The notes beneath the pieces are model-generated. The model made no database searches and was not told the origin of the DNA. It was given only the letters and a program-made list of their open reading frames with translations. Both the position numbers and the translations under genes were made by a program. 36,297 nucleotides of DNA from a virus, in IMG/VR virus record IMGVR_UViG_3300032116_000652, positions 1 to 36,297 of that record. One strand, given 5' to 3'. Below are positions 1 through 36,297 of the stretch, piece after piece (position 1 is the stretch's first letter; every line of letters begins with the position of its first letter).

Positions 1-221
1 TCAAGATTCCAATCAGCGAGCAGTTCGCTCCACAACGCATCGTTAGGCTCAACTTCAAGTGCGCCGGTAGTTATCTGCCCTTCGCTGCCATCCCAAGCGA
101 TACCGGATTCCCACCCCGCCGGAGCGGGAGTCGCTTTGCGATCCGATCGTCGTAGCGCAGCGTCGAGCGCATCAGGGTCTTGACCGGGAATAGAGATTGC
201 GTCGTCATACGAACCGGTCAC
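1..221 (-). CDS. Unknown phage protein, N-terminal 73 residues only (runs off the left edge)
   Basis: An open frame starts at a GTG (219-221) that overlaps the TGA of the preceding gene by four bases (GTGA), the coupling used throughout this genome, and stays open to the window edge. The visible part begins MTGSYDDAISIPGQDPDALD and continues with a GWESGIAWDG...ITTGALE stretch and a WSELLADWNL stretch. A Trp-rich lead of this kind reminds me of leaders of large enzymes in some actinophages, but no catalytic motif is in view and I assign no function. Its position downstream of capsid genes would also allow a structural role. It is truncated by the window, not broken. Confidence 0.7.
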   Translation of the reverse strand, partial: MTGSYDDAISIPGQDPDALDAALRRSDRKATPAPAGWESGIAWDGSEGQITTGALEVEPNDALWSELLADWNL

Positions 222-505
222 GTGTACGCCTCATCAGGGCAAGAACATGAACGCCGTCGATGCCGACCAAGAGAGTCGGGGCGCAAGGAAATGCCAAGCG
301 TTTCCTTGACGGCAGCAATGATCGGGGCGTGATTTAGAGTATCAACGGGAAGGTTGATGTAACCGACGAGCCGGGTGCGGTATTCACCGGGATCAAGTTC
401 AAGCACTACTCGACCAACCGAGCATCCTCGTGAATACCATTGATTGCGATGCCCTTCGATGAGTGAGGCGAGAGCGTCGGCGTCCGGAGTTGGTGGTTTC
501 GTCAT
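218..505 (-). CDS. Hypothetical protein of the head/connector region
   Basis: The frame encodes about 95 residues from the ATG at 505 (MTKPPTPDADALASLIEG...). A longer reading from a TTG at 565 would overlap the jelly-roll gene by 17 bases and has no Shine-Dalgarno site, so I prefer the ATG, which has a modest GGTAAGA upstream. The middle is strand-rich (GRVVLELDPGEYRTRLVGYI) and the tail is basic and Cys/Arg-rich (RHRRRSCSC). Position directly after capsid, connector-like and jelly-roll genes suggests a small virion or head-completion protein, but I recognise no family. Confidence 0.6.
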   Translation of the reverse strand: MTKPPTPDADALASLIEGHRNQWYSRGCSVGRVVLELDPGEYRTRLVGYINLPVDTLNHAPIIAAVKETLGISLRPDSLGRHRRRSCSCPDEAYT

Positions 506-548
506 GAGATCTATTCTTACCGAAGTAATGATCTCACCGGGGTGATAG

Positions 549-1097
549 TCACCTGACAGCGCCAACCTGCGTAACCGTCAGGATCACGGATGGGACAGCC
601 GGTCTCGTTGGAGAACTGCTGGTCCCTTCGGATTTCAGCCGCATCGACGCATCGGGAGAGGACCACATGAGTTGAACGTATTGACCAGCGGTGAACGTGT
701 AAACGAAGTTCCATGCTGCAATGACTCGCTCATTGCTCCCTCGAAGGGTGAGGTCAGTCGCCGACCTCGGGACATCCGCTCCATCTGTCCGCAACCAAAT
801 CGTCACATCGTCAGGGCCGGCATCGGTCTTGTCGAGTTGCGCTGAGAACTGGACGTTGTATGTGCCGGGATTAGCGATCACGATCCGACTTGTCGGCGAG
901 CCGACAGACACCCCGAACGATTCTTCGGTGGTATTGAAGGTCATGGCGGTGGCGGTGTTGGCCGTGATCGTCTGAGTCGTTGAGTCAGAGAACACTCCGT
1001 AGTACCCGAAAGCAAAGCCGGTTTCGAGAGCATCGGTGGCGCTCTGCCAGTTGCCTTTGTCGGAGTTCTTGAAGAACTGCCGATCATCAAACGCCAT
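549..1097 (-). CDS. C1q/TNF-like jelly-roll structural protein
   Basis: 182 residues. After a short lead that contains FFKNSDKGNW, the protein has the alternating pattern of a C1q/TNF-type beta jelly roll: a Thr/Ala-rich strand region (TTQTITANTATAMTF, about 40-54), then SRIVIANPGTYNVQFSAQLDK (about 70-90, written here as separate strands IVIANPG and YNVQFSAQL), and a terminal VILTVTQVG strand. Proteins of this type in phages are usually virion surface or tail-associated proteins that form trimers and may contact the host surface. It lies two genes downstream of the major capsid gene, which fits a virion component. The family assignment comes from pattern recognition of the GTYNVQFS strand; a tail-fibre tip is an alternative. 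Confidence 0.65.
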   Translation of the reverse strand: MAFDDRQFFKNSDKGNWQSATDALETGFAFGYYGVFSDSTTQTITANTATAMTFNTTEESFGVSVGSPTSRIVIANPGTYNVQFSAQLDKTDAGPDDVTIWLRTDGADVPRSATDLTLRGSNERVIAAWNFVYTFTAGQYVQLMWSSPDASMRLKSEGTSSSPTRPAVPSVILTVTQVGAVR

Positions 1098-7654: not shown

Positions 7655-8061
7655 CACAGGGCCACCGTTGAGACGAGCGCCGTGCGGCGACCTCGAACAG
7701 TGCGGAACGTGATCGCCCATTCGGTTTCGTCGACCGGGGCCGGCGGAGCGAGTTTGTCTCGCAGTCCCTTCATCGATCGAATGTGCTGGGCTCCGGAGCG
7801 GCGACACTCGTCGGGACCATCTTCCATCTGATCGGTCCATCGGTTGATGATGTCGTCGATGTCGTCGAGTGCATCGGTCATCGATGAGATGTGGAGGTAG
7901 GTGGACTTGCCTTCGGTGGTGATCGTTCCCCAAACCGGGAGTCGATCCGGGTCGCCGTTGGTTTCGTTGATCTCGTTCTGATCTTCGTTTACTTCGAGCC
8001 GGTACTGGATTTCGTTGGCTTGGAGTTTCGTGATCTTGATTTTGATTTCGTTGGTGGTCAT
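7654..8061 (-). CDS. Hypothetical protein with coil and basic tail
   Basis: 135 residues from the ATG at 8061, which has AAGGGGAA upstream and starts with the ACC-ACC codons typical of this genome (MTTNEIKIKITKLQANEIQY). It continues with an acidic helical segment (MTDALDDIDDIINRWTDQME) and a C-terminal strand region (WAITFRTVRGRRTALV). A longer frame to 8157 exists but lacks a ribosome site. No family recognised. Confidence 0.6.
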   Translation of the reverse strand: MTTNEIKIKITKLQANEIQYRLEVNEDQNEINETNGDPDRLPVWGTITTEGKSTYLHISSMTDALDDIDDIINRWTDQMEDGPDECRRSGAQHIRSMKGLRDKLAPPAPVDETEWAITFRTVRGRRTALVSTVAL

Positions 8062-8090
8062 TTCATTCCCCTTGGTTGTGTTGGTTGATT

Positions 8091-8309
8091 TCACTTGCAG
8101 GATTCGCATCCGGTGCCGAGCATGTGGAGCGCTCGACCAGCGGACATGGTCACCCACGAACCCCGTGGCGTTTCGATGAAAGTCATTTCGATAAGATCGT
8201 CGATCAGTCGATCAACTTCGTTGTTGAGGTAGTTGCCGCCGTGTCCGTTTCGACCGCAGGCGACTTCGCCGTTGTCGTTGATGAAGAGCATCTGCTCGGT
8301 GGTGTTCAT
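8091..8309 (-). CDS. First gene of leader-element array 1, hypothetical
   Basis: 72 residues beginning MNTTEQMLFINDNGEVACGR and ending LGTGCESCK, a CxxC-type tail. It directly follows leader element copy 1, whose AAGGAG sits seven bases before the ATG. The middle (VDRLIDDLIEMTFIETPRGS) reads like a short winged helix or helical hairpin. It may be a small regulator, but this is only position-based. Confidence 0.65.
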   Translation of the reverse strand: MNTTEQMLFINDNGEVACGRNGHGGNYLNNEVDRLIDDLIEMTFIETPRGSWVTMSAGRALHMLGTGCESCK

Positions 8310-8412
8310 GTGACTCCTTAGGTAGCGCCGGGCTCGTCCCCGGTACCCACTACCTTAGCCGGTCGGCCTAGCCGGTGCCACAACCCAAGAACGCCGCCAC
8401 AGTAAAGGGATC
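8310..8412 (-). promoter_or_regulatory. Leader element copy 1
   Basis: Read on the minus strand: TACTG box with its T at 8404 (95 bases before the ATG), 24 bases after that box a CGGCTAGG, then after five bases CGGCTAAGG, then a hairpin (inner arms 8328-8332 and 8339-8343; outer GGTAG 8321-8325 with CTACC 8350-8354), then TAAGGAG and the start at 8309. The layout is shared with copies 2-4. TAAGGT within the second box fits an actinobacterial TAnnnT -10 hexamer, so the element may hold a promoter plus structured leader. The upper part overlaps the terminator 8388-8425. Confidence 0.8.
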
Positions 8413-8425
8413 GTGGCGGCGTTCT
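8388..8425 (-). terminator. 13-bp perfect hairpin after the Dps gene
   Basis: AGAACGCCGCCAC (8388-8400) and its exact complement (8413-8425) enclose a 12-base loop. It lies 53 bases past the stop of the Dps gene and closes the portal-protease-Dps operon. No strong U tract follows on the minus strand (TGGGTTGTGG), so it may be an intrinsic terminator of the U-poor actinobacterial kind. Confidence 0.75.
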
Positions 8426-8477
8426 ATGAGGGGGTTGGCAAGGTAGGTCCGGCGCTACGCCGGAGCGGGCTCGACGA

Positions 8478-15191: not shown

Positions 15192-15641
15192 TTACTTCGT
15201 GACTCCGAAGCAGACCTTGCGGAGATCGGCGGCGAAGAGGTTGGCGAGGTCTTGATCTTCGAACTCCATCACGAGGATCAGGGCGTAGATGTTCTTTTGG
15301 ATTGAGTTGACTGCGTGCTGCCAGTCGGCGTATGCGCTTTCGATTCGCTGCGCTGGGTTTGCAACCCACTCGGCGGACCGGGGGCTGAAGCCGTCGGCGA
15401 TTTCGCCACGGATCTTCGCTGCGTAGGAAGTGAGACTTTCCGACTCGACGACCATCGTGCGATGAGCGGATTCGATGTCCCATCCGGCACGAATGATTTC
15501 TTCGAAGAGATGTTCGGCGACTTTGCTGCTGTAAAGGTCGAAGCCGCACTCGACGATCGCTGCCCGGAGGTCTTCCTTGACGATGATGTGTCCGTTCGTG
15601 ATGCTGCTGCGGTTTGCGGTGGTAGCGGTGGTGGTTTCCAT
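15192..15641 (-). CDS. First gene of leader-element array 2, hypothetical
   Basis: 149 residues following leader copy 2. The start is METTTATTANRSS, again ACC-rich at DNA level. The rest is helical (KEDLRAAIVECGFDLYSSKV, HLFEEIIRAGWDIESAH, QRIESAYADWQHAVNSIQKN). No membrane segment or catalytic motif. Unknown family. Confidence 0.65.
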   Translation of the reverse strand: METTTATTANRSSITNGHIIVKEDLRAAIVECGFDLYSSKVAEHLFEEIIRAGWDIESAHRTMVVESESLTSYAAKIRGEIADGFSPRSAEWVANPAQRIESAYADWQHAVNSIQKNIYALILVMEFEDQDLANLFAADLRKVCFGVTK

Positions 15642-15743
15642 GTTGTCTCCTTGGTAGGCCGGGGCTGTTCCCGGTAGCCACCAACCTAGCCGGCTGCCCT
15701 AGCCGCCGCAACTGCCGCCAAACGTCGCCCCAGTAGCGGTATC
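15642..15743 (-). promoter_or_regulatory. Leader element copy 2
   Basis: TACTG box with T at 15735 (94 bases before the ATG at 15641), 24 bases, CGGCTAGG, five bases, CGGCTAGGT, then a hairpin with inner arms 15659-15663 and 15670-15674 and a CCAAGGAGACA ribosome site. Same order and spacing as copies 1, 3 and 4. The 138-base gap 15642-15779 holds nothing else that I can identify. Confidence 0.8.
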
Positions 15744-15779
15744 GCAGCCGCCGGCGTCGAGCCGCCCTAGCCGTAGGCC

Positions 15780-19906: not shown

Positions 19907-20110
19907 TTATCGGGCGGCTCGACGAGCGGCGGCGAGGTCTTCTAGAAGGCAACTTTCGGTCAACTTGAGGCCGGCGATCCGTGCGCTGCATCGTGCGGCG
20001 ATGCGATCGTCGCCGTCGCCGAGTGCGATTGTCTTCGTGGTGTGACACATTTTGATTTCGGTGCGAGTGAGTTCGATGCGATCGAGAATGGTTTTGATGT
20101 TGGCTTCCAT
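19907..20110 (-). CDS. First gene of leader-element array 3, hypothetical
   Basis: 67 residues from the ATG at 20110, directly after leader copy 3 (AAGGAGACA). A helical protein (IKTILDRIELTRTEIKMCHT) with an Arg/Ala-rich end (SCLLEDLAAARRAAR). Its predicted helix pair resembles that of the coiled-coil gene downstream, suggesting distant duplication. Function unknown. Confidence 0.6.
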   Translation of the reverse strand: MEANIKTILDRIELTRTEIKMCHTTKTIALGDGDDRIAARCSARIAGLKLTESCLLEDLAAARRAAR

Positions 20111-20213
20111 GATGTCTCCTTGGTTAGCCGGGGTCGTTCCCGGTAGCCCCAACCTTAGCCGGTCGGCCTAGCCGGTGGGGAATCCGGCAGAATCCGGCCC
20201 CAGTACCGGCATC
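20111..20213 (-). promoter_or_regulatory. Leader element copy 3
   Basis: TACTG box with T at 20205 (95 bases before the ATG at 20110), 25 bases, CGGCTAGG, five bases, CGGCTAAGG, hairpin (inner arms 20128-20132 and 20139-20143; outer GGTT 20122-20125 with AACC 20151-20154), CCAAGGAGACA. Same plan as the other copies. The rest of the 191-base gap (20214-20301) is GC-rich with GCGGCGG runs and no gene visible. Confidence 0.8.
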
Positions 20214-20301
20214 GGGGCGGCGGTATTACGGCAAGGGCTGGCCGGGGCGTAGGCGGCGGCGGCGCTACCGGCGGCGGCTCGACGAGCGGCGGCGGACCTA
20301 A

Positions 20302-23280: not shown

Positions 23281-24075
23281 CTAGTCGAACACCATAACGT
23301 CAGGGTTAGCGTGCTGTTCTGTTGTGTTGTCGATCTTTGTGCCGTCTACCCATGTGCGGTTGAGCATGGGGTGGGTTTCGTCTTCCGGTCCCCAGTCTGT
23401 GTCGGGGTGGAATGCGATGACGTTGAGGTTGTCGCCGGAGTCGGCGGTGTGGAATGAGTGAACAACGTCTTTGGGGATAATCCACATCATGCCGGGGAGT
23501 AGGTCGAGGCGGTTGCCGTCTCCGTCGATGCAGTAGCCGGCACCGGAAGCGATTGCGCCGCACCGGACTGACGGGTGTGTGTGCGCTGTTTGATGGATTC
23601 CCGGTGGGAAGTGTAAGAGGTTTAGGCAGGGGTCGCCGAGCCGTGGTGGCGAAATGAGCAGGGTATCGGAGCACCTGTCGATGTAACGCAAGCGGCCCTT
23701 CGGCTCGACGGGTCCACCGATGGTGCGGAGCGGCACGAAGTCGGTTGTGTGAATGGCGACTAGGCGTGCAGGCTCATCGGGGTTGAACAGGAATGTAACC
23801 GGAGCGCTAACAGCGAAGTATTGACCGGCGACGAGTGTGACTGGTTCGAGGTTGTGGGTGTAGTCGCGCATCATGACCGTACCTTCGCTGACATACCCGA
23901 ATACAGCGCCACGCGTTTCAATGATCGTGGCGTCGGTTGCCGGTGCGTGTTCTTCGGAAACCGTCTCGAATCCGTAGAGGGTTGATTCGCGTAGCGATCC
24001 GTCCGGCATCGTGTCGGTGACGGTGAGTAGAGGCCCGAAGTATTCGGTCCACGTTTGGAACTTGTCGATGATCAT
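23281..24075 (-). CDS. Bicupin-like protein
   Basis: 264 residues. The C-terminal half has a cupin: HTHPSVRCG with His165 and His167, and WIIPKDVVHSFH with His206; the acidic residue usually four to five positions after HxH is Cys172 here. A degenerate first cupin seems to occupy about 55-115 (VFGYVSEGTVMMRDY...PVTLVAGQYFAV). Cupins are dioxygenases, isomerases or ligand sensors, and I cannot tell which this is. It overlaps the ATP-pyrophosphatase gene by ATGA, so it probably acts in the same pathway as the PAPS/ParB island. Confidence 0.75.
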   Translation of the reverse strand: MIIDKFQTWTEYFGPLLTVTDTMPDGSLRESTLYGFETVSEEHAPATDATIIETRGAVFGYVSEGTVMMRDYTHNLEPVTLVAGQYFAVSAPVTFLFNPDEPARLVAIHTTDFVPLRTIGGPVEPKGRLRYIDRCSDTLLISPPRLGDPCLNLLHFPPGIHQTAHTHPSVRCGAIASGAGYCIDGDGNRLDLLPGMMWIIPKDVVHSFHTADSGDNLNVIAFHPDTDWGPEDETHPMLNRTWVDGTKIDNTTEQHANPDVMVFD

Positions 24076-24758
24076 TCGGTGATACTCCTTGTTGTAGCGA
24101 ATCTTTCTGGGGTGATAGACGGGTCGAGGCTATTAGCGAGCCGCCACGCCTGTTCGTAACCGCCTACGAGTTTGTGTTTGAGGTTGAAGAACGGTCCGTT
24201 GCCTACAAGTTGGCCGTGGACGTTGTGATAAATCCACGGCTTCGGGATACCGACTTTGTCCATGTACGCCCAAATGTGTTCATGCTTCCACGCTCGAATA
24301 GGGTGAAACGATCCGAGATGACGGGTCTTGTAGAGCATGTGCGGCACCGTGTTCTCTTGCGTCCGGCGACCGAAAACAACCATGTCATGTCCGTTCTCGG
24401 TGGCGTAGTCGCGCATCGTGGTGTGCTGTCTTTGCGCAAACCACTTTAGTCTGATCCGGCTATCCGTAGCGAAAAGGTATTGGGGGTTGTGTCGAAGCCA
24501 GTCGTCGTCGCGCCGTTTTTCCCATGAGATAGTTAGCCCCATGTTTGCTGCGATGTTTTGTACGTCTGCGGCCTGCCGTTCGTAGTAATGCGAAACTTCA
24601 CATGCGCCGATCGTGATGCCGTGGAGCGCCATTAGGTGTGCCATAACGATGGAGTCTTTACCGCCGGAAAACGCAAGCACAGGATTAGAACAAGTGACTA
24701 ATGCCGAATCAATGTCGATATGGGCTTGAGCGATTAGTTCGTCGAGGTCTGCGGTCAC
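24072..24758 (-). CDS. ATP-pyrophosphatase (PAPS-reductase-like fold)
   Basis: 228 residues with the PP-loop AFSGGKDSIVMA (SGGKDS at 31-36), an ACEVSHYYERQAADVQN strand and VFGRRTQENT...HPIRAWKHEHIWAYMDK, as in PAPS-reductase-like proteins. It lacks the C-terminal ECG(L)H cysteine motif of real CysH enzymes, and the only Cys (23 and 53) are near the N-terminus. So it adenylates a substrate but is unlikely to reduce PAPS. It overlaps both neighbours (ParB upstream, cupin downstream) by four bases. Candidate roles are nucleic-acid modification or a signalling nucleotide chemistry. Confidence 0.82.
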   Translation of the reverse strand: MTADLDELIAQAHIDIDSALVTCSNPVLAFSGGKDSIVMAHLMALHGITIGACEVSHYYERQAADVQNIAANMGLTISWEKRRDDDWLRHNPQYLFATDSRIRLKWFAQRQHTTMRDYATENGHDMVVFGRRTQENTVPHMLYKTRHLGSFHPIRAWKHEHIWAYMDKVGIPKPWIYHNVHGQLVGNGPFFNLKHKLVGGYEQAWRLANSLDPSITPERFATTRSITE

Positions 24759-25291
24759 GACTCAACCTGCTTGTCCGTGTCCGGTTTCCATGACTCCGAG
24801 AAGTCTTCGCTTGCGCCGCGTTCGATCATCTGTCCACGCATAAGCAGCCTTGTCACTTCTTCTGAGTCCATACCGAGCCGTGCTTTGAGGTCTTCCGGGG
24901 AAACGTCATACACGTTTACGAGTTCATCAACGATGTCAGCCATACGGACAACGTGATGTTTGCCGCGTGCTCGATTATGTCTAATCGTCGCCATCCGCTG
25001 ATGAGCGGGATCGGGGTCAATGATTACGACCGGCACCAAGTTGTTGGTCAACGCTCCAACGTCTTTGCGCCCCGAAACCGTCCAGCGATGAAAGCCGTCA
25101 ACGATTTCGTAACGTCCGTTATCGACCGAACGAGCGACGATAGGTTGCGTCCACCCCGACTCTAGGATCGACTGTGCTAGCAACCGAAGTTCGGGAGAGG
25201 CAACGTGATTCGGGTTGTAGTCGTTTGCCTGTAGGAGTTCCCGGTCAAGCCATTGGACGTTAGATATCGGTTGTTGATCGTGGTGCGACAT
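24755..25291 (-). CDS. ParB/Srx-fold protein, IbrB-like
   Basis: 178 residues: LQANDYNPNHVASPELRLLA, SILESGWTQPIVAR, IVDGFHRW (63-70), ATIRHNRARGKHHVVRMADI, then a helical end (EDLKARLGMDSEEVTRLL). This pattern is that of IbrB, the ParB-like partner of the PAPS-reductase-like protein IbrA in enterobacteria, where the pair was reported to co-activate eib genes. The centromere-binding HTH of chromosomal ParB is absent. The GFHR motif is the CTP/ATP-binding pocket of the fold. Coupled to both flanking ATP-pyrophosphatases. Confidence 0.85.
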   Translation of the reverse strand: MSHHDQQPISNVQWLDRELLQANDYNPNHVASPELRLLAQSILESGWTQPIVARSVDNGRYEIVDGFHRWTVSGRKDVGALTNNLVPVVIIDPDPAHQRMATIRHNRARGKHHVVRMADIVDELVNVYDVSPEDLKARLGMDSEEVTRLLMRGQMIERGASEDFSESWKPDTDKQVES

Positions 25292-26546
25292 GAGTGCCTT
25301 CCGGGTCGTCGAGTATTGGGATGCGTTTCGGTAGCCATGATGCGCCTTGATCGCGCAACTCTTGGGCTTCCTTCGCGTAACGGACCTTGAACTTTTCGTA
25401 CTTGTTGTATCCGGGAGCGAGGCTAGCCATGATGCGTTTCTTTAGGTCCGCTGTTTGTGCAGCCTTAGCAAGAATACGCCAAGACACACCCGTCAATGGG
25501 TGACGGCTGCTAATGAGGATTGGGTCCTCAACCTTTTTGTAATGGAATCGAATGAGGCCTTGCACGGAACGTGCCGCAGCAACCCTCATTTCATTGTCGG
25601 TATGTTGATCGATGATCTCTCGAATACGTTCTTGCGGTGTTTGATCTTTACCTAGAACGAACGGGCCATAAGCGCCATAAAGTTCGGTGTTCGCATAACG
25701 ACTCGCTGCCGCAGCACCGGGGACTCGGTCAACCATTTTGTCCCATAGTTCAGGATACGCTTCATGCCATTCATGTAGGCCACGCAACGGTTCGTCACCG
25801 TATGGCGGAGCGCAGCGTTGCGACGCATGTCCCACCCCCATCATTTCAAGGATGTCGTAATACCGGTTGTAGTCCCAACCGAGTTTCTTCGGCGCAGTCC
25901 AAACGTCAGACGTAGTCCAGTCGTACACCGGATATGCCTTCACGATCCAAGGAGCAGTCTTCCACGGCGGCGTAATCCAGTTATGCAATCGGCTAGAAAC
26001 TGAAACCGCTTTCAGTCGCGTGAGCGATTCTTGCGCTCGAATACCTAGAACCGCTGCTGTACGACCGTATTCGGGACCTACAACGTATGGAACTAGTTCG
26101 TCGATAGGAGCCCGATGCTCGTCGGTGTCGAGGTCTAATCCTTCGATTTCAGTTATCGCTTCAGGCGGAAGGTCACGCACCCATAGGTGTTTGTCTTCCG
26201 AGGCCCACGGGAACCAATACCCTGAGTCCATGGCGGCTCCGTTGCGGTGTCGTAATGGGACGCAATACCATCGAAGATCGACTTCAGGCATTTGGCTAAC
26301 ACGCCTTACATAATCTTCGGTGTCGGGTGCTATGGCCTCTTCGTCGAAGAAGATCGTCAGCAGCGGAAGCCGGTTGAGCCTAATCGCCGCTTCAAGGCAC
26401 AGGTTGAACACGGCAGTAGAATCTTTGCCTCCTGAGAATGAAACGAACACTGTGTCGTATTCATGGAACAGGAGATCAACGCGAGCGCGTGCCGCTTCGA
26501 GCACATTCCCATCGTCTGCTGTGCGTTTGAACTCAAACTGCGACAT
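25260..26546 (-). CDS. IbrA-like ATP-pyrophosphatase (DUF3440/PAPS-reductase-like)
   Basis: 428 residues with the PP-loop SFSGGKDSTAVF (SGGKDS at 38-43) and the DUF3440 signature GHASQRCAPPYGDEP (Cys245) followed by LHEWHEAYPELWDKMVDRVPG and YANTELYGAYG. That matches IbrA-type proteins rather than CysH. It precedes the IbrB-like ParB gene with a 32-base overlap, the same pairing as in enterobacterial ibrAB. The biochemical reaction is not known. Role in host gene activation, DNA modification or defence is possible. Confidence 0.85.
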   Translation of the reverse strand: MSQFEFKRTADDGNVLEAARARVDLLFHEYDTVFVSFSGGKDSTAVFNLCLEAAIRLNRLPLLTIFFDEEAIAPDTEDYVRRVSQMPEVDLRWYCVPLRHRNGAAMDSGYWFPWASEDKHLWVRDLPPEAITEIEGLDLDTDEHRAPIDELVPYVVGPEYGRTAAVLGIRAQESLTRLKAVSVSSRLHNWITPPWKTAPWIVKAYPVYDWTTSDVWTAPKKLGWDYNRYYDILEMMGVGHASQRCAPPYGDEPLRGLHEWHEAYPELWDKMVDRVPGAAAASRYANTELYGAYGPFVLGKDQTPQERIREIIDQHTDNEMRVAAARSVQGLIRFHYKKVEDPILISSRHPLTGVSWRILAKAAQTADLKKRIMASLAPGYNKYEKFKVRYAKEAQELRDQGASWLPKRIPILDDPEGTHVAPRSTTDI

Positions 26547-27177
26547 TATTCACCGCGTAGATGAGCGCATCGGTCATTGTGGGAATGTCATTTTCAGACA
26601 TTAGGCGGCGCAATCCTTCAGCGAGTTCCGCTTTCTGTTCGCTTGACACCATAAAGGTCATCGGCGCTAGGGCTACCTCTACCGATTGCAAGGTATCTAG
26701 TGAAGCGGCCTCGCCTTCAATGTCGTCGAGGAATGAGGATTCGTCTGCGCTTCGCATTCCGGTGGTGCGAAGTAGCGCATTTAGATCAACGTCAGTCCAA
26801 CCCGTGCCATCCAAAGAACCGATAGAGCCAAGGAGTTTGGCGAGAGACTCGTTGTCGTAGCCGGCAAGGTCGCTTGTTCGATTGTCGGCGAGCAGGATTC
26901 TTTTGGCTGTCTTCGCATCAACGTCAACATAGGTGACCGGGATTTCCGTCAAGCCGACTTGCTTAGCCGCCTGCCACCGATGAAACCCTGCGAGGATGTG
27001 ACCGGTCGATTTGCGCACGATTACGGTGCCGTAGAAGCCGTGCGCTCGAATAGATTCAACGATCGCATCGACGTTGCCTACGCGCGCGTTGTCGGGATGT
27101 GCTTTCAACGCGTCGATTGGCACCAACACGTTTTCGGTATTGACGATTTCCACAGGTTCTCCTATTTCTTTGTCCAT
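26533..27177 (-). CDS. ParB-fold protein (single domain)
   Basis: 214 residues from the ATG at 27177 (a longer reading to 27246 lies in the neighbour's frame). ParB motifs: PIDALKAHPDNARVGNVDAI, HILAGFHRWQAAKQVG, ILLADNRTSDLAGYDNE, then GTGWTDVDLNALL and a C-terminal domain (MTFMVSSEQKAELAEGLRRL). It is clearly paralogous with both domains of the next upstream gene. No DNA-binding HTH is seen. It overlaps the IbrA-like gene start by 14 bases. Confidence 0.85.
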   Translation of the reverse strand: MDKEIGEPVEIVNTENVLVPIDALKAHPDNARVGNVDAIVESIRAHGFYGTVIVRKSTGHILAGFHRWQAAKQVGLTEIPVTYVDVDAKTAKRILLADNRTSDLAGYDNESLAKLLGSIGSLDGTGWTDVDLNALLRTTGMRSADESSFLDDIEGEAASLDTLQSVEVALAPMTFMVSSEQKAELAEGLRRLMSENDIPTMTDALIYAVNNVAV

Positions 27178-28352
27178 GTTCCGGGTGGAAGTTGTAATCG
27201 TTGTGCAACGGTTTCGTGCGGATCTTCCCCGACGTAACGTGCCCATTCATCAAAGACGTCTCGACGTACCGTGAACCGGAAACGATCAACGATGATGCGG
27301 GTTGGCCCACCTACCGTTCGTGTTGGCTTGCCGCTAGCGCCGCTCAGTAGGTCGTCAAGGTCGTCGAGGTCGTATCCGGTACCGGAAGGGTCCCCTACCG
27401 ACCGAAGTAGCGTGATAAGCGTTTCATCGTCGTAGCCGGCGAGGTCACTAGTCCGGTTGTCAACGATAACAATCCGTGCCGCTTCGTCTTCATCTACGTC
27501 GACGAACGTAACTGCCACTTGATCCCAACCGAGCATCATTGCTGCACGCAAAGTGTGATTGCCGACTAGCACCGTCATCGTTGGCTGATTGACAACGATT
27601 GGACGGTACTGTCCATTCACGCGCAGGGACTCTGCTATTGCGCCAACGTCACCTTGTCGAGCGTTATCGGGAAAGAAATGTAGTTGCTCTATGGGGATAG
27701 AGGTGGCGTTTGCTGTGGATAAGCGGACGGGAGTAGTTTCCGGGTCTGATCGCTGAGCCGGTGGTTCAGGGAAACCTAACAAGTCCCGAATAGTTGATTC
27801 GGGTTTGCGTGGAAGTCGCTCAATAGGATCGGCCCAAGCCTCGAACGCATCTCTATCTACCGTGAGTTTGATTGATGAGACTGCTATCTCTGCATCTTGT
27901 TCTACATCGGGCTCGGCGGATGCTGCTGTTATGCCGTCTCCACCGATGCGGGATGGTGCGGGATGGAAAACTCCATCTACGTCGTCAAGGTCACCGCGAG
28001 TGAAGCCGGTGTCGTCGAGGGTCGGCAAAGAGTGCAGTAGTTCGGACAGAGCGCCGTCGTCGTAGCCGGCAAGGTCGGCGGTTCTGTTGTCTGCGAGGAC
28101 GATGCGGCGCTCGCCGGCTTCATCTACGTCAACGAATACTGCGGCGATTTTGCGCCAACGCAATCGTTTCGCTGCCTGCCAAGTGTGATTGCCTGCGAGT
28201 ATGTGATTCGTTCGAGTAGAGACGACGATGGGACGGAACTGTCCATGAGCGCGCAAACTGTCGGCGATGGCATCAATGTTGCCGCGTCGAGGGTTGCCCG
28301 GATAGGGCGCAACCGAGCCGATCGGCACAAGTGATAGATCCGTGGCGGTCAT
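27162..28352 (-). CDS. Tandem ParB-fold protein (two complete domains)
   Basis: 396 residues made of two repeats of about 200. Repeat 1: SLVPIGSVAPYPGNPRRGNI, HILAGNHTWQAAK (50-62), VLADNRTADLAGYDD (85-99), DDTGFTRGDLDDVDG, then IKLTVDRDAFEAWAD (161-175). Repeat 2 has the same order: PIEQLHFFPDNARQGDVGAI, TVLVGNHTLRAA (260-271), VDNRTSDLAGYDDE (297-310), GTGYDLDDLDDLL and FRFTVRRDVFDEWAR (358-372). The GxHR Arg of usual ParB pockets is replaced by T-W/T-L (GNHTW, GNHTL), so nucleotide use may differ. A duplicated gene from an ancestor like the downstream one. Confidence 0.88.
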   Translation of the reverse strand: MTATDLSLVPIGSVAPYPGNPRRGNIDAIADSLRAHGQFRPIVVSTRTNHILAGNHTWQAAKRLRWRKIAAVFVDVDEAGERRIVLADNRTADLAGYDDGALSELLHSLPTLDDTGFTRGDLDDVDGVFHPAPSRIGGDGITAASAEPDVEQDAEIAVSSIKLTVDRDAFEAWADPIERLPRKPESTIRDLLGFPEPPAQRSDPETTPVRLSTANATSIPIEQLHFFPDNARQGDVGAIAESLRVNGQYRPIVVNQPTMTVLVGNHTLRAAMMLGWDQVAVTFVDVDEDEAARIVIVDNRTSDLAGYDDETLITLLRSVGDPSGTGYDLDDLDDLLSGASGKPTRTVGGPTRIIVDRFRFTVRRDVFDEWARYVGEDPHETVAQRLQLPPGTWTKK

Positions 28353-28398
28353 AACAAACGCAGCCTAGCGGCTAGGCGAGACGCTTTAGGTGATAGTG

Positions 28399-29721
28399 CT
28401 ACAACCCTCGTTGCGTGAGTCGTATCAAAAGATCAGCGAGGATTGAGTTTGACTCGTCATCGGTTTGCGCTCCATCGGTAGCGGCATCAACGATCATGCG
28501 TTTGGCGGTGATTAGGTCAGCGATGTCTTCGTCAATCGTGTCGGCACAAATGGCTACCCACGCAGTTACCGAGTCTTCTTGGCCTATGCGGTGGCAGCGA
28601 TCAGCGGCTTGATCCATGCCCGCTGGAGTCCAATCCTGCTCGACGAATAGCACGTCTGAAGCAGCCGTAAGTGTTAGCCCTACTCCGGCGGCTTTGATTG
28701 AGCACACGATGACTTGCTGCGATGGATCATTTTGGAATGCGTCAATCGATGCTTGCCGGCTAGCGCCGGTAATCCCTCCGGTAATGCGTAGTTGTCCTGC
28801 GAACTTGTCTGCCAAACGGTCGACGTGTTGACGATGATGAGCGAAGATAACAAGTTTGGATTCTGACGCGATGAAGTTTTCGATCCAAACGTCTATCGCC
28901 TTCTGTTTAGCCTCGGCGGCAAGTCGCTTTAGTGCGCTTACTGCGACTAGATGCTCCGCCGCTGACGTTCTTATTGACTGTTCCCACGCGCATCGGCTCG
29001 CTTCGGCATCGGTAGCGCCGGCGTCGAGCGCCGCTTGTCTTGCTTTCTCTGCCAAGAACGTCACTATGTCCCGTTCCGCTTTGCGGTATTCCTGCATCAC
29101 CGAAGGTTCGCCCTCGACGATGATCGTGGCCCACCGTTTCGGTGGGAGTTCGGTGAGAACGTCAATCTTCCGGCGACGTAGATACGCGCTAGCGCGTAGA
29201 CGGCGGTTGAGTTCCGGCAGGTTGGATTGACCGGCGTAGCGGCGGCGGAACTGTCTAGCCCCACCGAACTCGTCGAGCCGATGAAGGACTCGTAGTTGCG
29301 TAATGAGTTCATCGGGATGGTTGACTACCGGCGTACCTGAAAGACATAGGCGAATAGCGTCGTCTCGCAACCTGTCTGAAAGTCGTATGGCTGCTTTCGT
29401 TCGCTGAGTTGCACCGTTCTTGAGATAGTGCGACTCGTCGAAGATAAGAGCGCTAATGCCGTCTAGCGAATCAACCCAAGCGTCGAGTATGTCGTAGTTC
29501 AGAATGTAGACATCGGCGATAGGCAGTTCGTAGGGCCGGACTCCGTCCACAATGACCGCTGTGCGGTTCGGGAGCCAAGAACGGGCTTCCCTAGCCCAGT
29601 TGAGTTTGAGGGACGCAGGGCAAACCACAGCCGCCGGGAACGCATTAGTAGCGGCGAGTACGGCTAACGCCTGAACAGACTTGCCAAGGCCCATCTCGTC
29701 GGCGATTAGAACTCCGGACAT
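28399..29721 (-). CDS. SNF2-family helicase, ATPase half
   Basis: 440 residues that start almost directly at motif I (MSGVLIADEMGLGKS) and contain the rest of the SNF2/SMARCAL1-like motor: VVCPASLKLNW (Ia), ALIFDESHYLKN (II, DESH 95-98), CLSGTPVVN (III), VIFAHHRQHVD, SIKAAGVGLTLTAA (V) and DRCHRIGQ (VI). The sequence that should precede motif I (the pfQraGv region and the HARP domains) is on a separate gene at 32213-32842, 2.5 kb upstream. No strong ribosome site precedes the ATG. It probably works with that half as a two-part annealing/branch-migration helicase in replication or recombination. Confidence 0.88.
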   Translation of the reverse strand: MSGVLIADEMGLGKSVQALAVLAATNAFPAAVVCPASLKLNWAREARSWLPNRTAVIVDGVRPYELPIADVYILNYDILDAWVDSLDGISALIFDESHYLKNGATQRTKAAIRLSDRLRDDAIRLCLSGTPVVNHPDELITQLRVLHRLDEFGGARQFRRRYAGQSNLPELNRRLRASAYLRRRKIDVLTELPPKRWATIIVEGEPSVMQEYRKAERDIVTFLAEKARQAALDAGATDAEASRCAWEQSIRTSAAEHLVAVSALKRLAAEAKQKAIDVWIENFIASESKLVIFAHHRQHVDRLADKFAGQLRITGGITGASRQASIDAFQNDPSQQVIVCSIKAAGVGLTLTAASDVLFVEQDWTPAGMDQAADRCHRIGQEDSVTAWVAICADTIDEDIADLITAKRMIVDAATDGAQTDDESNSILADLLIRLTQRGL

Positions 29722-29781
29722 AAGTATCGGTGGATCGTCTCGCTAAAGGGTCTGCATGTGTGCGCTATCAATGATCGCAAC

Positions 29782-30129
29782 TCAACACGACGCCCACCCA
29801 CAGAAGTACCATTCGTTGTCGCCGGACTTGATCGCCACCGCCGGTCCCCACTTGCTGTCATAAGCGGAAAGAAGTCGGGACGTAGTTTCATCGCCGAACA
29901 ACTTCCGCATCGGTGCAGAGTCATCGTCGAGGTGTGAGTTGATTGCAGCGTCGAAGTCGTTGAGTGTTTTGTCAACCGGTAGCGAGAACTCGACGAACCC
30001 TTCCTTCTCAGCGATGCTGCCTGAGTAGCCGCTATGTCCGTGATCGTAGTAGGCACGTTCGAGCGCATCGGTAAAGGCTTGTAGCGCTGTCGTACCATGG
30101 CCGTAGGCTTCAAAAGTACAGGCTCCCAT
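29782..30129 (-). CDS. Hypothetical protein in the helicase-splitting cassette
   Basis: 115 residues from the ATG at 30129. The start MGACTFEAYGHGTTALQAFT and AYYDHGHSGYSGSIAEKEGF belong to a small phage protein type I have seen in several phage genomes, without known function. It is the last gene of the cassette before the SNF2 half. AC-rich leader and a weak GAAAGAGA site precede it. A longer frame to 30435 is a shadow. Confidence 0.65.
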   Translation of the reverse strand: MGACTFEAYGHGTTALQAFTDALERAYYDHGHSGYSGSIAEKEGFVEFSLPVDKTLNDFDAAINSHLDDDSAPMRKLFGDETTSRLLSAYDSKWGPAVAIKSGDNEWYFCGWASC

Positions 30130-30169
30130 AATCGCATCTCTTTCTGTTGTGGTGGTTGTTTGATGATGG

Positions 30170-30679
30170 TCAGTACCAGCAGTAAGAACCGTCGGCGTTT
30201 TCGGCGACCCAGCGGAGCCACCACGCAGCGTATTCGCATTCATTCTTGTGAGTGACCGAAACAGCCTCGACGCCGGTTTCGATGTAATCAAACTTCGATG
30301 GATCATCAACCCATTCGATTCCGGCGATCGCATCCTCAATAGTTTCAGCAAGGTCGAGGCATTCTGCTGCTGACTTGTACGTTCCATCAGCATTTGAACC
30401 GTAGAACGACATTCCTTCGCTTTCGTCATACGCAATGCCGAGCACCTTTTCTAGCAACGAGTTGCCGTATTTACCTCGATACCAGCATGGTGATCCGAAG
30501 ATGCCGTGAACCGCTCCGGTTTCGGGACGACCCTTTGCAACATTGAATGGACATCCGCACGCTTCCGCTGTTTCGGCGCAATCAACAACGCCTTCGGGAT
30601 CGCCATCAACGTAGATCGCTGTCTTTTGCGTTACGCACGGAAGTTTCGCTGGAAGATTATCAAGTCCCATTCTGCTCAC
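30170..30679 (-). CDS. Hypothetical Cys-rich acidic protein
   Basis: 169 residues starting at GTG (GTGA overlap) or at ATG 30670. It has several Cys (VVDCAETAEACGCPFNV, GSPCWYRGKYG, a terminal SYCWY) and an acidic helix (CLDLAETIEDAIAGIEWVDD). No known family. The first Cys group could hold a metal. Confidence 0.6.
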   Translation of the reverse strand: MSRMGLDNLPAKLPCVTQKTAIYVDGDPEGVVDCAETAEACGCPFNVAKGRPETGAVHGIFGSPCWYRGKYGNSLLEKVLGIAYDESEGMSFYGSNADGTYKSAAECLDLAETIEDAIAGIEWVDDPSKFDYIETGVEAVSVTHKNECEYAAWWLRWVAENADGSYCWY

Positions 30680-31179
30680 CCGATTCCGTTGTAGGGATAG
30701 AAACCATTGAGGCCGGCGGCTCGAACAAACTCGTCGTGCTGTTCGTTGAGAAACTCAACGCACCGATCGCCGAACTGTAAGGGACTTTCGTCGCTCTCCC
30801 AGTCGTAGTTGACGGTGAAGCCGAGCCCAAGGCTGTCCTTTAGGCTCAGTTCTTCGTCCCATGCATAGGCCCTGTGGTCGACGTCGCTGAAGTAGCCGGG
30901 GCCGATAAACCATGACGGGACTTGATCGCCGGCATCGTTACGCACCCACGGTGCGACGTAGATGACGGCAACGTCGCTGCCTACGTTGGCGATCATGGCG
31001 GTGTAGCCGGCGTAGGTGAGGGCGCTGAGGATTTCATCGAACTCGACGAGGTTATGCACTTGTGGTGCTTCGGTGATCCGTTCGATTGCGTCGTCAATAG
31101 CATCGATGTCAATCTGACTGAGGATTTCTTGCACTTGGTTGAGTGCGGAGATGAGCGCTTTGTGATCTTCGGGATTCAT
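30676..31179 (-). CDS. Hypothetical acidic protein
   Basis: 167 residues from the ATG at 31179, overlapped by the previous stop (ATGA). A helical start (ALISALNQVQEILSQIDIDA, DAIERITEAPQVHNLVEFDE), then beta strands (AMIANVGSDVAVIYVAPWVR) and a Trp/Tyr-rich end. Function unknown. Confidence 0.65.
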   Translation of the reverse strand: MNPEDHKALISALNQVQEILSQIDIDAIDDAIERITEAPQVHNLVEFDEILSALTYAGYTAMIANVGSDVAVIYVAPWVRNDAGDQVPSWFIGPGYFSDVDHRAYAWDEELSLKDSLGLGFTVNYDWESDESPLQFGDRCVEFLNEQHDEFVRAAGLNGFYPYNGIG

Positions 31180-31559
31180 GATCCTTGTGCCTCCGTGTGC
31201 TTTTGCAGGCTGGCCATGAGGCGAGCGTTGACTCGACGAAAGGCGTTGCGGCGGCGGATCTGATTGCGCTTCTCGTCCCATTCGTCTCCGGCTCCACCTT
31301 CGTTGCAGGAATCGGTGAGAAGATCGAGCATGAAGCCGACCCAGTAAGCGAGTGCTTGAACTGACTCAATCGTTGGGCATACGAACTCGTGATGAAGTCG
31401 TGTTCCGCTCTTGGGTGGAGTCGTGCGTGTCGTTACGCCGGCGAGCGCTGCTGCTTTCGCTGACTCGCTAGCGAGCGGTCCGCAAGCCTCGACGAACTCT
31501 TCTGAGACGAGTCGGTTGCGGATAATGAGCGTTGGCTCGGTGGTGGTTGTGGTGGTCAT
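31176..31559 (-). CDS. Hypothetical protein with Thr-rich start
   Basis: 127 residues from the ATG at 31559 (MTTTTTTEPTLIIRNRLVSE). Helical, with a middle FVCPTIESVQALAYWVGFML and a basic end (RRRNAFRRVNARLMASLQKH). AAGAAGGGAAA and an AACCAAACC leader precede it. Unknown function. Confidence 0.65.
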   Translation of the reverse strand: MTTTTTTEPTLIIRNRLVSEEFVEACGPLASESAKAAALAGVTTRTTPPKSGTRLHHEFVCPTIESVQALAYWVGFMLDLLTDSCNEGGAGDEWDEKRNQIRRRNAFRRVNARLMASLQKHTEAQGS

Positions 31560-31605
31560 TGCAGTTTCCCTTCTTGATTGGTTTGGTTTGGTTTGTAGAT
31601 CGTGT

Positions 31606-32151
31606 TCAGTCTTTGACCGGGGTGGAGTCCCATACGGTTCCGACCCATTCGGTATTGCCGAAGTCGTTCTGCGCTTCGGTGCGTGCATCTTCCGGTGAGT
31701 ATGCGACGACGTTTACGTCGAACGTTTCGCCATTTGCGTCTCGAAGTGTGACGTAGAAGTTGCGGCGGAGTCCAGCCTTCCGGTTGGCGTTTTGCACGGC
31801 TGCGGCGATCTCCTTACCTCGCTCGTCGGTGGGCGGCGCTACGAACAGGCGATACTGCTCGACGACCTCCGATGCCATTCCGTGCCATCCGTACTGGAAG
31901 TCTTGAACCCAAAAGTCGTGTCCGTTGTTGACGGCGAGGACGATTCCCCGAAGTGTGAACTGTGCGAACGTGCAACCGTCGTCATCGAAAGTTTCGATGA
32001 GGCCCTTCCGCTTGAGGTCGGTGAGGTGTCCCTTCTTCTCTGGTCGTCCGTCGAAGTCGATGAGTGGGGTTCCGCTCCAGTTGCCTGCGTCCTTTGCAAG
32101 TTCCTCGAACAGTTGCGCTGATCCGGTGGTGAGTGTCGTGGTGGTGGTCAT
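31606..32151 (-). CDS. First gene of leader-element array 4, hypothetical
   Basis: 181 residues following leader copy 4. MTTTTTLTTGSAQLFEELAK leads to a winged-helix-like segment (HLTDLKRKGLIETFDDDGCT), then a central domain (VVEQYRLFVAPPTDERGKEI) and a strand-rich C-terminal segment (RNFYVTLRDANGETFDVNVV). A small DNA-binding regulator is possible. It is the first gene of the cassette that lies between the two helicase halves. Confidence 0.65.
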   Translation of the reverse strand: MTTTTTLTTGSAQLFEELAKDAGNWSGTPLIDFDGRPEKKGHLTDLKRKGLIETFDDDGCTFAQFTLRGIVLAVNNGHDFWVQDFQYGWHGMASEVVEQYRLFVAPPTDERGKEIAAAVQNANRKAGLRRNFYVTLRDANGETFDVNVVAYSPEDARTEAQNDFGNTEWVGTVWDSTPVKD

Positions 32152-32258
32152 GGTGTCTCCTTAGTAGGTAGCCGGAGCGGGCCTCCGGTACCTACCACCC
32201 TAGCCGCTAGCCCTAGCCGGCTCCAGTAGTCGGGTATCCGGCCCCAGTAGCGGGTTCC
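32152..32258 (-). promoter_or_regulatory. Leader element copy 4 (inside the helicase gene end)
   Basis: TACTG box with T at 32249 (98 bases before the ATG at 32151), 24 bases, CGGCTAGG, five bases, CGGCTAGGG, and the strongest hairpin of the set: GTAGGT/ACCTAC (32164-32169, 32190-32195) and CCGGAG/CTCCGG (32172-32177, 32183-32188). CTAAGGAGACA follows. Its upstream part is read as the last 17 codons of the HARP gene, and the TAG of the first CGGCTAGG is that gene's stop. This suggests the element was inserted into the helicase gene. Confidence 0.8.
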
Positions 32259-32842
32259 GGGGCCGGTAGCCGGCCTAGAGCCCGTAGGGCGTAGGCGACC
32301 CCGGCTCGCTGGAACGGCAGAAGCACGCCGCCTAATCCGGGGACATCGAAATCCGCATCCGCCGCCGACGAAGCGATGATGCGCTCAAGTGCCTCGCGTG
32401 TTTCGTCGAGCACATCGTCTGCGGAATGATCGACGATCGCTCCGGTAGCAATAACGAAATCACTTACCGATGAAGATGCATCTAGATCAACCCGCCACGC
32501 TTTGCGTTTGGGATTCCATCTACATCCCGGCAGTTCCTTTACCCTCACCAACAGGTTGCGGTCATAGTCGAACGTAATGCTGAACGCATGATCTTCAATA
32601 GCAACCGTCGGTCCTAGTGGCGGTTCGGCGTCGGGCACGGTCTGTACTTCTGCGGCTAACCGGAAGTCGTGCTTTCGTCCGTACTCGACGACGGTCCTCA
32701 CGGAAGTTAGCGGCGCATACCAACACCTATCAGCGGACGACCATTGCCTTCCGGGGATTGAACGTATGTCTGCTACGAGAAGCGGGTCGTAGTCGAAGCG
32801 AATAGCAAAGGCCTCGCCTATTACGTCGATACTGCGTTTCAC
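32213..32842 (-). CDS. SNF2 helicase, N-terminal (HARP-like) half
   Basis: 209 residues from a GTG at 32842 that overlaps the upstream TGA (GTGA). Two repeats with the HARP-type pattern are visible: FAIRFDYDPLLVADIRSIPG...WSSADRCWYAPL and FSITFDYDRNLLVRVKELPG...WNPKRKAWRVDL. After an acidic helix comes FDVPGLGGVLLPFQRAGVAY, the Q-motif region that in whole SMARCAL1-like helicases runs on into motif I. The last residues (RLPAPEPATGAGYPTTGAG) are low-complexity and are coded by leader element 4. So it is a truncated gene whose second half is at 28399-29721; it may still be functional in trans. Confidence 0.85.
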   Translation of the reverse strand: MKRSIDVIGEAFAIRFDYDPLLVADIRSIPGRQWSSADRCWYAPLTSVRTVVEYGRKHDFRLAAEVQTVPDAEPPLGPTVAIEDHAFSITFDYDRNLLVRVKELPGCRWNPKRKAWRVDLDASSSVSDFVIATGAIVDHSADDVLDETREALERIIASSAADADFDVPGLGGVLLPFQRAGVAYALRALGRLPAPEPATGAGYPTTGAG

Positions 32843-33246
32843 TCGTCGAGGTCTCCACCGCAATGAGGGCAGGAGGTTGGCCGGCGGCGATTACGGTTCG
32901 GCTCTTCAATGTCACGTTCTGATCGATAACGAGGGATTACATAGACCTTGCATGCGGTCCGTTTCGCCGTCAATCGAAGCACATGACCGTCGATGTGCAG
33001 ATTGGTTAGAGCGCCGGAAAGAGTTCCGTGGTGATGATCGGGGAACTTTTTGCGTATCTCGGCGATAGTCATTCCATAGAACCCTGAAGATTCCACGGCT
33101 TTGAGTATTGACCGCTGTGTTGTTGAGGTGATGCCGTTTGCGTCGTTACGCTCCGCCCGTTCGAGCGAAGTGTCTGTCCCTGACCATCCCGATGTTCCGG
33201 CATAAGGGGTCGCCGGAAGTGGTTCATCATCGAAAAGGCTGTTCAT
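32839..33246 (-). CDS. Winged-helix protein with C-terminal zinc knuckle
   Basis: 135 residues. A disordered lead (about 1-40) precedes a winged helix (TTQRSILKAVESSGFYGMTI, AEIRKKFPDHHHGTLSGALT, LHIDGHVLRLTAKRT) and a terminal RRPTSCPHCGGDLDE knuckle. AAGGAGAAA precedes the ATG. DNA-binding regulator or replication cofactor is likely. It lies between RusA and the HARP half. Confidence 0.7.
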   Translation of the reverse strand: MNSLFDDEPLPATPYAGTSGWSGTDTSLERAERNDANGITSTTQRSILKAVESSGFYGMTIAEIRKKFPDHHHGTLSGALTNLHIDGHVLRLTAKRTACKVYVIPRYRSERDIEEPNRNRRRPTSCPHCGGDLDE

Positions 33247-33632
33247 TTTGGTTTCTCCTTGTGTGGTGGTCCTGCAATAGTAAGAACTAATGCGTCTCGC
33301 CCGATCATGGGCGCAAGGTAAGTGATAGTGCGAACGATGTCAGGAGTGTCGTCGAGCAACAGTCCTGCATCGACTAGTCCGTCAACCGCTGCTTTGACGG
33401 CCGGGTGACACGCCCCGGTGTCTTGCAAGCCTCTACGGTTGCCGAGCCACGGTTGCGCCGTGATTACGCACCATTCCAGACGAGGAACTCGCTGTTCGGA
33501 CGCTAGCCAAGCGAATCCTGTTCGCCATTCTTTTGTAAGACGCGCGCGTTCCCATCGATTCTTGCCTCGTTCGAAGTTCGTTGTCCAAGGTCGAGCCGGG
33601 AACTCAAACGTCCAAGTTGGATAATCGCTCAT
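33243..33632 (-). CDS. RusA-like Holliday junction resolvase
   Basis: 129 residues from the ATG at 33632 (ATGA overlap with the HNH gene). Matches the RusA pattern: FPARPWTTNFERGKNRWERA, then GLQDTGACHPAVKAAVDGLV, DAGLLLDDTPDIVRTITY and ALVLTIAG. The Asp residues of GLQD, VDGLVD and DDTPD provide the metal site. It would cut branched DNA before packaging. Placed in the replication block beside the HNH nuclease. Confidence 0.82.
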   Translation of the reverse strand: MSDYPTWTFEFPARPWTTNFERGKNRWERARLTKEWRTGFAWLASEQRVPRLEWCVITAQPWLGNRRGLQDTGACHPAVKAAVDGLVDAGLLLDDTPDIVRTITYLAPMIGRDALVLTIAGPPHKEKPK

Positions 33633-35660: not shown

Positions 35661-36278
35661 TTATGCCGGCGTTGGGGACACGAAGGTCGGGGCCATTTTT
35701 TCCCACTCGGCGACGAACTCCGTTACTTGGTCGAGCATCTCATCGGTAATCGTTCCGGGGTGGCCGAACCGTTCAGCGAATCCTTGCTTTGCCGCTAAGC
35801 GTGCAGGTGCAGGTTCGATACCGTTGAGCCGTTCTACAACATCGGCCATAGGGCCGGTGATGTTTGCGCTCGACGAGTCTTTTCGTTGCGGTTGGCTTTG
35901 CCGTTTCTTGGCCGGCGTAGGTGCTGGTGCGTTGCGATCGTTCTCGCGCAACATAACTTCGTGGCGAGACGCCATTGAACGGGAAACTCCGATACCGCAC
36001 GCTGCGATTGCTCGTCCGATTGCGGAGGTTTCGGCGTTCATCATCTCAGAATCTTTCGTGTATGGCGTGCGACCGGGGAATGTTTCCCAAGCGGAAGCCG
36101 TACACGGGCATGGATCGTCAGCGGTGCGGTACACCGCCGCTGTTACTTCGATGAAGTGGCGATCGCCGATGACGCGTACTTCCGGCGGCGAACATACGAT
36201 CCGCCCTTCCGGGTGGTTCTTGTAGAACCGCTCGACGCGTTCGGGAACTGTGACGTAGTCGGTAAGGTCAAATGCCAT
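35661..36278 (-). CDS. Erf/Rad52-like single-strand annealing protein
   Basis: 205 residues. The N-terminal half (MAFDLTDYVTVPERVERFYK, GDRHFIEVTAAVYR) and the diagnostic MMNAETSAIGRAIAACGIGV (about 78-97) occur in phage annealing proteins of the Erf/Rad52-like group. The second half is a Lys/Arg/Ser-rich linker (AKKRQSQPQRKDSSS) and a short C-terminal domain. It pairs complementary single strands in phage recombination. A GAAGGAG site lies nine bases before the ATG; its promoter is outside the window. RecT-type is an alternative. Confidence 0.7.
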   Translation of the reverse strand: MAFDLTDYVTVPERVERFYKNHPEGRIVCSPPEVRVIGDRHFIEVTAAVYRTADDPCPCTASAWETFPGRTPYTKDSEMMNAETSAIGRAIAACGIGVSRSMASRHEVMLRENDRNAPAPTPAKKRQSQPQRKDSSSANITGPMADVVERLNGIEPAPARLAAKQGFAERFGHPGTITDEMLDQVTEFVAEWEKMAPTFVSPTPA

Positions 36279-36297
36279 GATGTTGCTCCTTCGTTTG

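Follow-up and report, generated by a model that had tools for sequence, protein, structure and literature searches.

A SMARCAL1-like phage helicase encoded in two genes, with a block of small phage genes at a recurrent seam

Introduction

How does a phage come to encode a single helicase as two separate genes with a block of small genes between them, and can the two products still act as one enzyme? This question is raised by a metagenomic virus contig (IMG/VR record IMGVR_UViG_3300032116_000652), of which we analyzed positions 1 to 36,297; we refer to this whole stretch of 36,297 nucleotides as the window. An initial annotation of the window had read the locus as the imprint of a cassette that inserted into a core SNF2/HARP helicase gene and thereby split it, with the halves now possibly forming a two-subunit enzyme. 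We favor another order of events, to which we assign a probability of roughly two in three: the helicase gene would have been split in an ancestor, the cassette would have landed in the seam later, and the two chains would assemble as one enzyme.

Results

To characterize the locus, we examined the genes in their order on the minus strand, which is a small gene (32839-33246), the N-terminal half of the helicase (N-half), the fourth copy of a leader element, five small genes (s1 to s5), the C-terminal half (C-half), and a ParB-like gene (27162-28352). The N-half (32213..32842, minus strand) has a GTG start that overlaps the stop of the upstream gene (GTGA), and it encodes two HARP-like repeats, a long helix, and a Q-motif helix (LPFQRAGVAYAL). 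The Pfam HARP family matches all 10 of 10 N-half homologues (best 3e-12), whereas the match of the window's own N-half (2.6e-4) falls under Pfam's cut-off. The best PDB match of the N-half is 4o66, the HARP domain of SMARCAL1 (E 5e-4), and its structural model shows two beta-beta-alpha-beta-beta-alpha units followed by the long helix and the Q-motif helix. Based on the Pfam matches of the homologues, the 4o66 match, and the two repeats in the model, the protein carries two N-terminal HARP domains, as the initial annotation had proposed. The C-half (28399..29721, minus strand) begins MSGVLIADEMGLGKS and runs from Walker A onward through both RecA lobes. Its matches to Pfam SNF2-rel_dom (E 4.6e-25) and Helicase_C (E 2.8e-13) are both over the cut-off, its PDB sequence matches are SNF2 ATPases, and the alignment contains the SNF2 motifs GLGKS, DESH, SGTP, and DRCHRIGQ, placing it in the SNF2 family. 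All helicase motifs remain intact in the window's N-half and C-half alike. The C-half is preceded by a 60-nt spacer (29722..29781, minus strand) that lacks a clear ribosome-binding site at the usual distance. The two genes are thus complementary halves of a single SMARCAL1-like helicase (two HARP domains and an SNF2 ATPase), of which fused homologues exist; here the initial annotation was correct, including in its coordinates and description. A megablast search of GenBank phages with window positions 12000-36000 gave no match.

The initial annotation had suggested looking for an uninterrupted helicase in related phages and asking whether the halves fit one fold, and both checks came out in its favor. 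In L002, L084, and L085 the helicase is uninterrupted, with both parts continuous (FQRAGVAYVLRAGGDVLIADQMGLGKT; PFQRAGVAYVLRAGGDVLIADQMGLGKT) and the insertion exactly absent, so that an intact homologue exists here as it does for the split genes of T4-type phages. Across the approximately 128 distinct fetched sequences that we scored, 118 were fused and nine were split. The fused helicases comprised 85 without and 33 with a linker, and this linker, of about 10-31 residues, lies at exactly the split point. In an AlphaFold2 model of the fused L084 helicase (mean pLDDT 84.8; 26 sequences), for which SNF2 ATPases are the nearest solved structures, the seam falls within a single fold, at a three-residue loop (residues 185-187) flanked by the Q-motif helix (173-184) and strand beta-1 (188-191) of RecA lobe 1. 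The cut, which is followed by this Walker-A strand, thus lies inside the folded RecA lobe 1 and not between domains, and the loop appears to be tolerant, given that other relatives carry a peptide linker there. In addition, we observed homologous helicases with a LAGLIDADG intein near Walker A (GLGK...HN, then T), which places the intein within a few residues of the seam (L135:2688-5627 and L183:5001-8100). A separate group (L110:6001-8445, and also L111-L115) carries about 150 extra in-frame residues in RecA lobe 1, between EGTTKPN and IIIICNYDI, which have no Pfam match and mark a second insertion-tolerant loop.

We found the same-point split in seven further lineages, represented by ten contigs (L003, L082, L083, L019, L170, L172/L173, and L178/L179/L188), which brings the number of split lineages including the window to at least eight. 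Every split C-half begins at the same residue (M/V-x-GV), and what lies between the halves differs among lineages: a 14-codon open reading frame (ORF) in L170, L172, and the L178 group, with a similar ...TPLEF... in L170 and L178/L188; a 38-codon ORF in L003; 46 codons in L083; and two ORFs of 61 and 69 codons in L082. In L019 (4501-6183) the halves overlap by 4 nt (GTGA). We found no HARP match upstream in this contig, and its C-half forms a long branch in our tree; L019 is possibly a reduced form of the helicase. The stops and starts in the split relatives mostly overlap (ATGA, GTGA), which suggests translational coupling, and the ORFs of 14 and 38 codons may serve such coupling instead of being genes. 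Coupling of the halves through such an overlap is not evident in the window.

What separates the halves in the window is leader copy 4 and the five small genes (29782-32151), an arrangement already described in the initial annotation and borne out by an nhmmer match to the leader (32143-32263, minus strand, E 5e-25) and by five ORFs. The leader copy (32143..32269, minus strand) consists of a CGGCTAGG repeat pair, a CCGGAG..CTCCGG inverted repeat, an AAGGAG ribosome-binding site, and the start of s1. The homology of the N-half to its relatives stops at ...RALGR (CGG at 32272-32270), and the leader begins immediately after. Alignment with the N-half ends of L083 and L082 and with the other leader copies indicates that the last 18 codons of the N-half (LPAPEPATGAGYPTTGAG) and its stop (32213..32269, minus strand) are derived from the leader. 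The initial annotation had recognized this origin and had counted 17 residues rather than 18. The leader-derived tail is disordered in the model (pLDDT under 50). We found no sigma-70-like site in 28300-33300 that would let the leader be read as a promoter. The consensus fold of nine leader copies is weak, with changes on both sides in only two pairs, and we therefore claim no RNA structure for it.

Further leader copies lie on the minus strand of the window at 8301..8426 (copy 1), 15633..15754 (copy 2), and 20103..20227 (copy 3). A sister phage (L161/L306; 77-82% DNA identity) has three leaders, located at the sites of copies 1-3, and the contig L307, which overlaps the end of the window, has two. 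Comparison with the sister phage shows that the slot behind the leader is a place of gene exchange. Specifically, the one gene directly behind leader 1 in the window (MNTTEQMLFINDNGEV..., 8039-8300) is precisely missing in the sister phage (L306 1-140), and at the leader-3 site the sister phage carries a leader with s1 that is 84% identical in DNA, over 396 nt, to leader 4 and s1 of the window.

Three of the small genes have relatives elsewhere. The s1 gene (31606..32151, minus strand; 181 aa) has its sister-phage homologue (82-83%) behind a different leader, and a partial homologue in a Pseudomonas phage. Homologues of s4 (30170..30670, minus strand; 166 aa) occur at 34-42% in five other phage contigs, and those of s5 (29782..30129, minus strand; 115 aa) at 36-40% in Gordonia and Rhodococcus phages. 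Homologues of s4 and s5 are adjacent in an unrelated phage (L311:6001-6999), and the stretch fetched from it shows no match to the helicase. For s2 (31176..31559, minus strand; 127 aa) and s3 (30676..31179, minus strand; 167 aa), which overlaps the s2 stop (ATGA), we found no homologue, and these two are supported as open frames alone, whereas s1, s4, and s5 are also supported by homologues elsewhere. Searches of Pfam and PHROG, extended for s1, s4, and s5, gave no convincing family match that would indicate a function for s1-s5. We found no nuclease match among them in Pfam or PHROG, and thus no homing endonuclease between the halves, and no integrase or transposase. The relatives of s1, s4, and s5 in other phages suggest that the block was assembled from ordinary phage small genes.

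Around this locus we made several further observations. Beside the helicase, 24072-28352 holds two PAPS-reductase-like genes (24072-24758 and 25260-26546) and several ParB-like genes, in one of which the ParB unit is duplicated. Contig L307 (13 kb, tail genes) shares 125 identical bases with the end of the window (36173-36297), and over its first 3.5 kb it matches L308, a contig covering the start of the window. From these overlaps, the genome is probably circularly permuted and near 51 kb, with six leaders. The start of the window (1-972) is mosaic: a contig with 99.5-100% identity to the window elsewhere drops to 87% over 1-523 and has no match over 524-972.

To reconstruct the order of events, we built a tree from both halves. 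One clade (support 97/93) unites the window, L083, and the pair of L082 and the fused L084, and a second clade holds the split L003, L019, L170, L172, and L178/L179/L188 together with the fused L215 and L086. The tree requires at the fewest four changes between split and fused. A single origin of all split rows was rejected by the AU test (p 0.0003); a grouping of the window, L082, and L083 without L084 was not rejected (p 0.16). Because the fused L084 nests in the window's clade, the gene must have become re-fused there if the clade's ancestor was already split. This bears on the explanation that the leader and small-gene cassette entered an intact helicase and itself split the gene, with the other lineages splitting independently. 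The fused L084, L002, and L085 are common to the window's clade, the rejected single origin and the four or more changes mean that independent splits or re-fusions occur, and the first half closes with leader sequence, all of which fit such an insertion. However, L083 and L082 are cut at the same residue with other, much shorter content, and the first half of L083 ends (...MGR and stop) exactly where the window's leader begins: GGCCGG is followed by TGA in L083 and by CTA in the window, which continues CTACCGG. A blind insertion would have had to hit the same codon and to leave the C-half start at the same residue as in the other split lineages. We therefore consider it unlikely that the cassette made the cut, and we part here from the initial annotation, also in view of the same-residue splits with other contents in the second clade. 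Read most simply, these sequences indicate that the gene had probably been split by the time the window's small genes arrived. A split that arose independently in the window is a less probable alternative.

Do the separate halves still make a working enzyme? We compared the split pair L178 and L188 and found dN/dS values of 0.043 for the N-half and 0.047 for the C-half, against 0.12-0.17 (N) and 0.04-0.08 (C) in fused controls. By this measure both chains are under purifying selection while separate in L178/L188, and the value of about 0.045 in both halves makes a working two-chain enzyme likely in this pair. These values come from relatives, as the contig that is 99.97% identical to the window ends at window position 26476, before the helicase. 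A dead helicase, whose decaying halves persist for lack of time, would agree with the missing ribosome-binding site of the C-half and with the long branch and missing HARP match of L019, but we regard it as quite improbable given the intact motifs in both window halves, the low dN/dS of both halves in split relatives, and open frames that are intact in eight lineages. That an intron, an intein, or ribosome bypass reunites the halves, before translation or in its course, has precedents in phages, and inteins do occur near Walker A in the relatives L135 and L183. Each half of the window's helicase, however, has its own start and stop; the window has no Rfam match at gathering thresholds, and thus no catalytic intron by this search; the halves and s1-s5 have no intein (Hint/splicing) or homing-endonuclease match; and the spacing of the halves varies across lineages, from an overlap of 4 nt to a gap of about 2.5 kb, in different frames. 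We consider such rejoining highly improbable. Finally, the leader copies are repeats in a metagenome contig, at which an assembler could have joined distant regions, but the same seam recurs in independent contigs, and the longest exact repeat of the cassette is 15 nt to the rest of the window and 19 nt to the adjoining L307, making repeat-driven misassembly unlikely; an assembly artefact is scarcely credible. Taken with the relatives' selection, the intact motifs, and the precedents of nrdA and gp43, the window's two chains most likely assemble into one enzyme, and we infer that this enzyme works.

Discussion

We propose that in an ancestor the helicase gene was cut at the RecA lobe 1 loop that links the Q-motif helix to strand beta-1, leaving two adjacent reading frames whose seam would then become a slot for the coming and going of small phage genes. 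In the window's lineage, a leader-headed block (leader 4 and s1-s5) would have attached precisely where the first half ended, so that the N-half now reads 18 residues into the leader. The most likely route would be recombination between leader copies and their ACC-rich start regions, which we suggest because the first gene after the leader is exchanged at neighboring leader sites as well. In the assembled enzyme, the first chain would contribute DNA binding through its two HARP repeats, together with the Q-motif helix, and the second chain would contribute Walker A through motif VI. We put forward only tentatively, with more doubt than confidence, the full picture: an SNF2-family ATPase would work as two chains, one of which supplies the HARP domains and the Q motif in trans to the other, which carries Walker A; it would have been split repeatedly at one loop; and the seam would be a small-gene slot filled without nucleases by leader recombination. 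The helicases form a natural series (fused without a linker, fused with a linker, overlapping, and with a micro-ORF or one, two, or five genes between the halves) that allows the study of how a conserved enzyme gets cut and of how the cut serves phages as a site for new genes. If the separation of the Q motif from Walker A is functional, it would amount to a natural design for an SNF2 motor in two parts.

Our findings can be compared with three known systems. In T4-like phages, genes in pieces include Aeh1 nrdA, split by mobE, the T4 topoisomerase genes 39/60 with mobA, and gene 43A/43B of Aeromonas phage 25, and in the tested cases the halves act as one enzyme, as for Aeh1 nrdA and for 43A/43B, which co-purify and are active (PMC2988022). 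For gene 43 of phage 25, an element invading an already split gene has also been considered (PMC2988022), a direct parallel to our account in which the split came first. As in the window, foreign DNA separates the two reading frames into which a core replication or nucleotide gene is cut. Unlike these cases, the window has no homing endonuclease there, the intervening genes vary by lineage, and the helicase is cut inside a RecA lobe, at the same residue in no fewer than eight lineages. The SMARCAL1/HARP (HepA-related) annealing helicases share the arrangement of two HARP repeats followed by an SNF2 ATPase; the window's enzyme differs in that it is phage-encoded, is in two chains, and has an N-half whose HARP match is under Pfam's cut-off. 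The leader resembles the SAS/ESAS elements of cluster K mycobacteriophages, of which there are 11-19 SAS per genome, in being a short repeated element with inverted repeats right before the start codons of some genes (PMC3203893). However, it differs in sequence, its consensus reading ...CTACCAAGGAGACACCATG and lacking the 13-bp start-codon repeat GGGATAGGAGCCC of SAS/ESAS, and it is longer (about 125 nt), with six copies known; moreover, its downstream gene is exchanged between sites, and it forms part of a coding region. Overall, phage genes in pieces are already known, and what is less usual here is that the cut is recurrent, that it lies inside a RecA lobe, and that small genes free of nucleases fill it.
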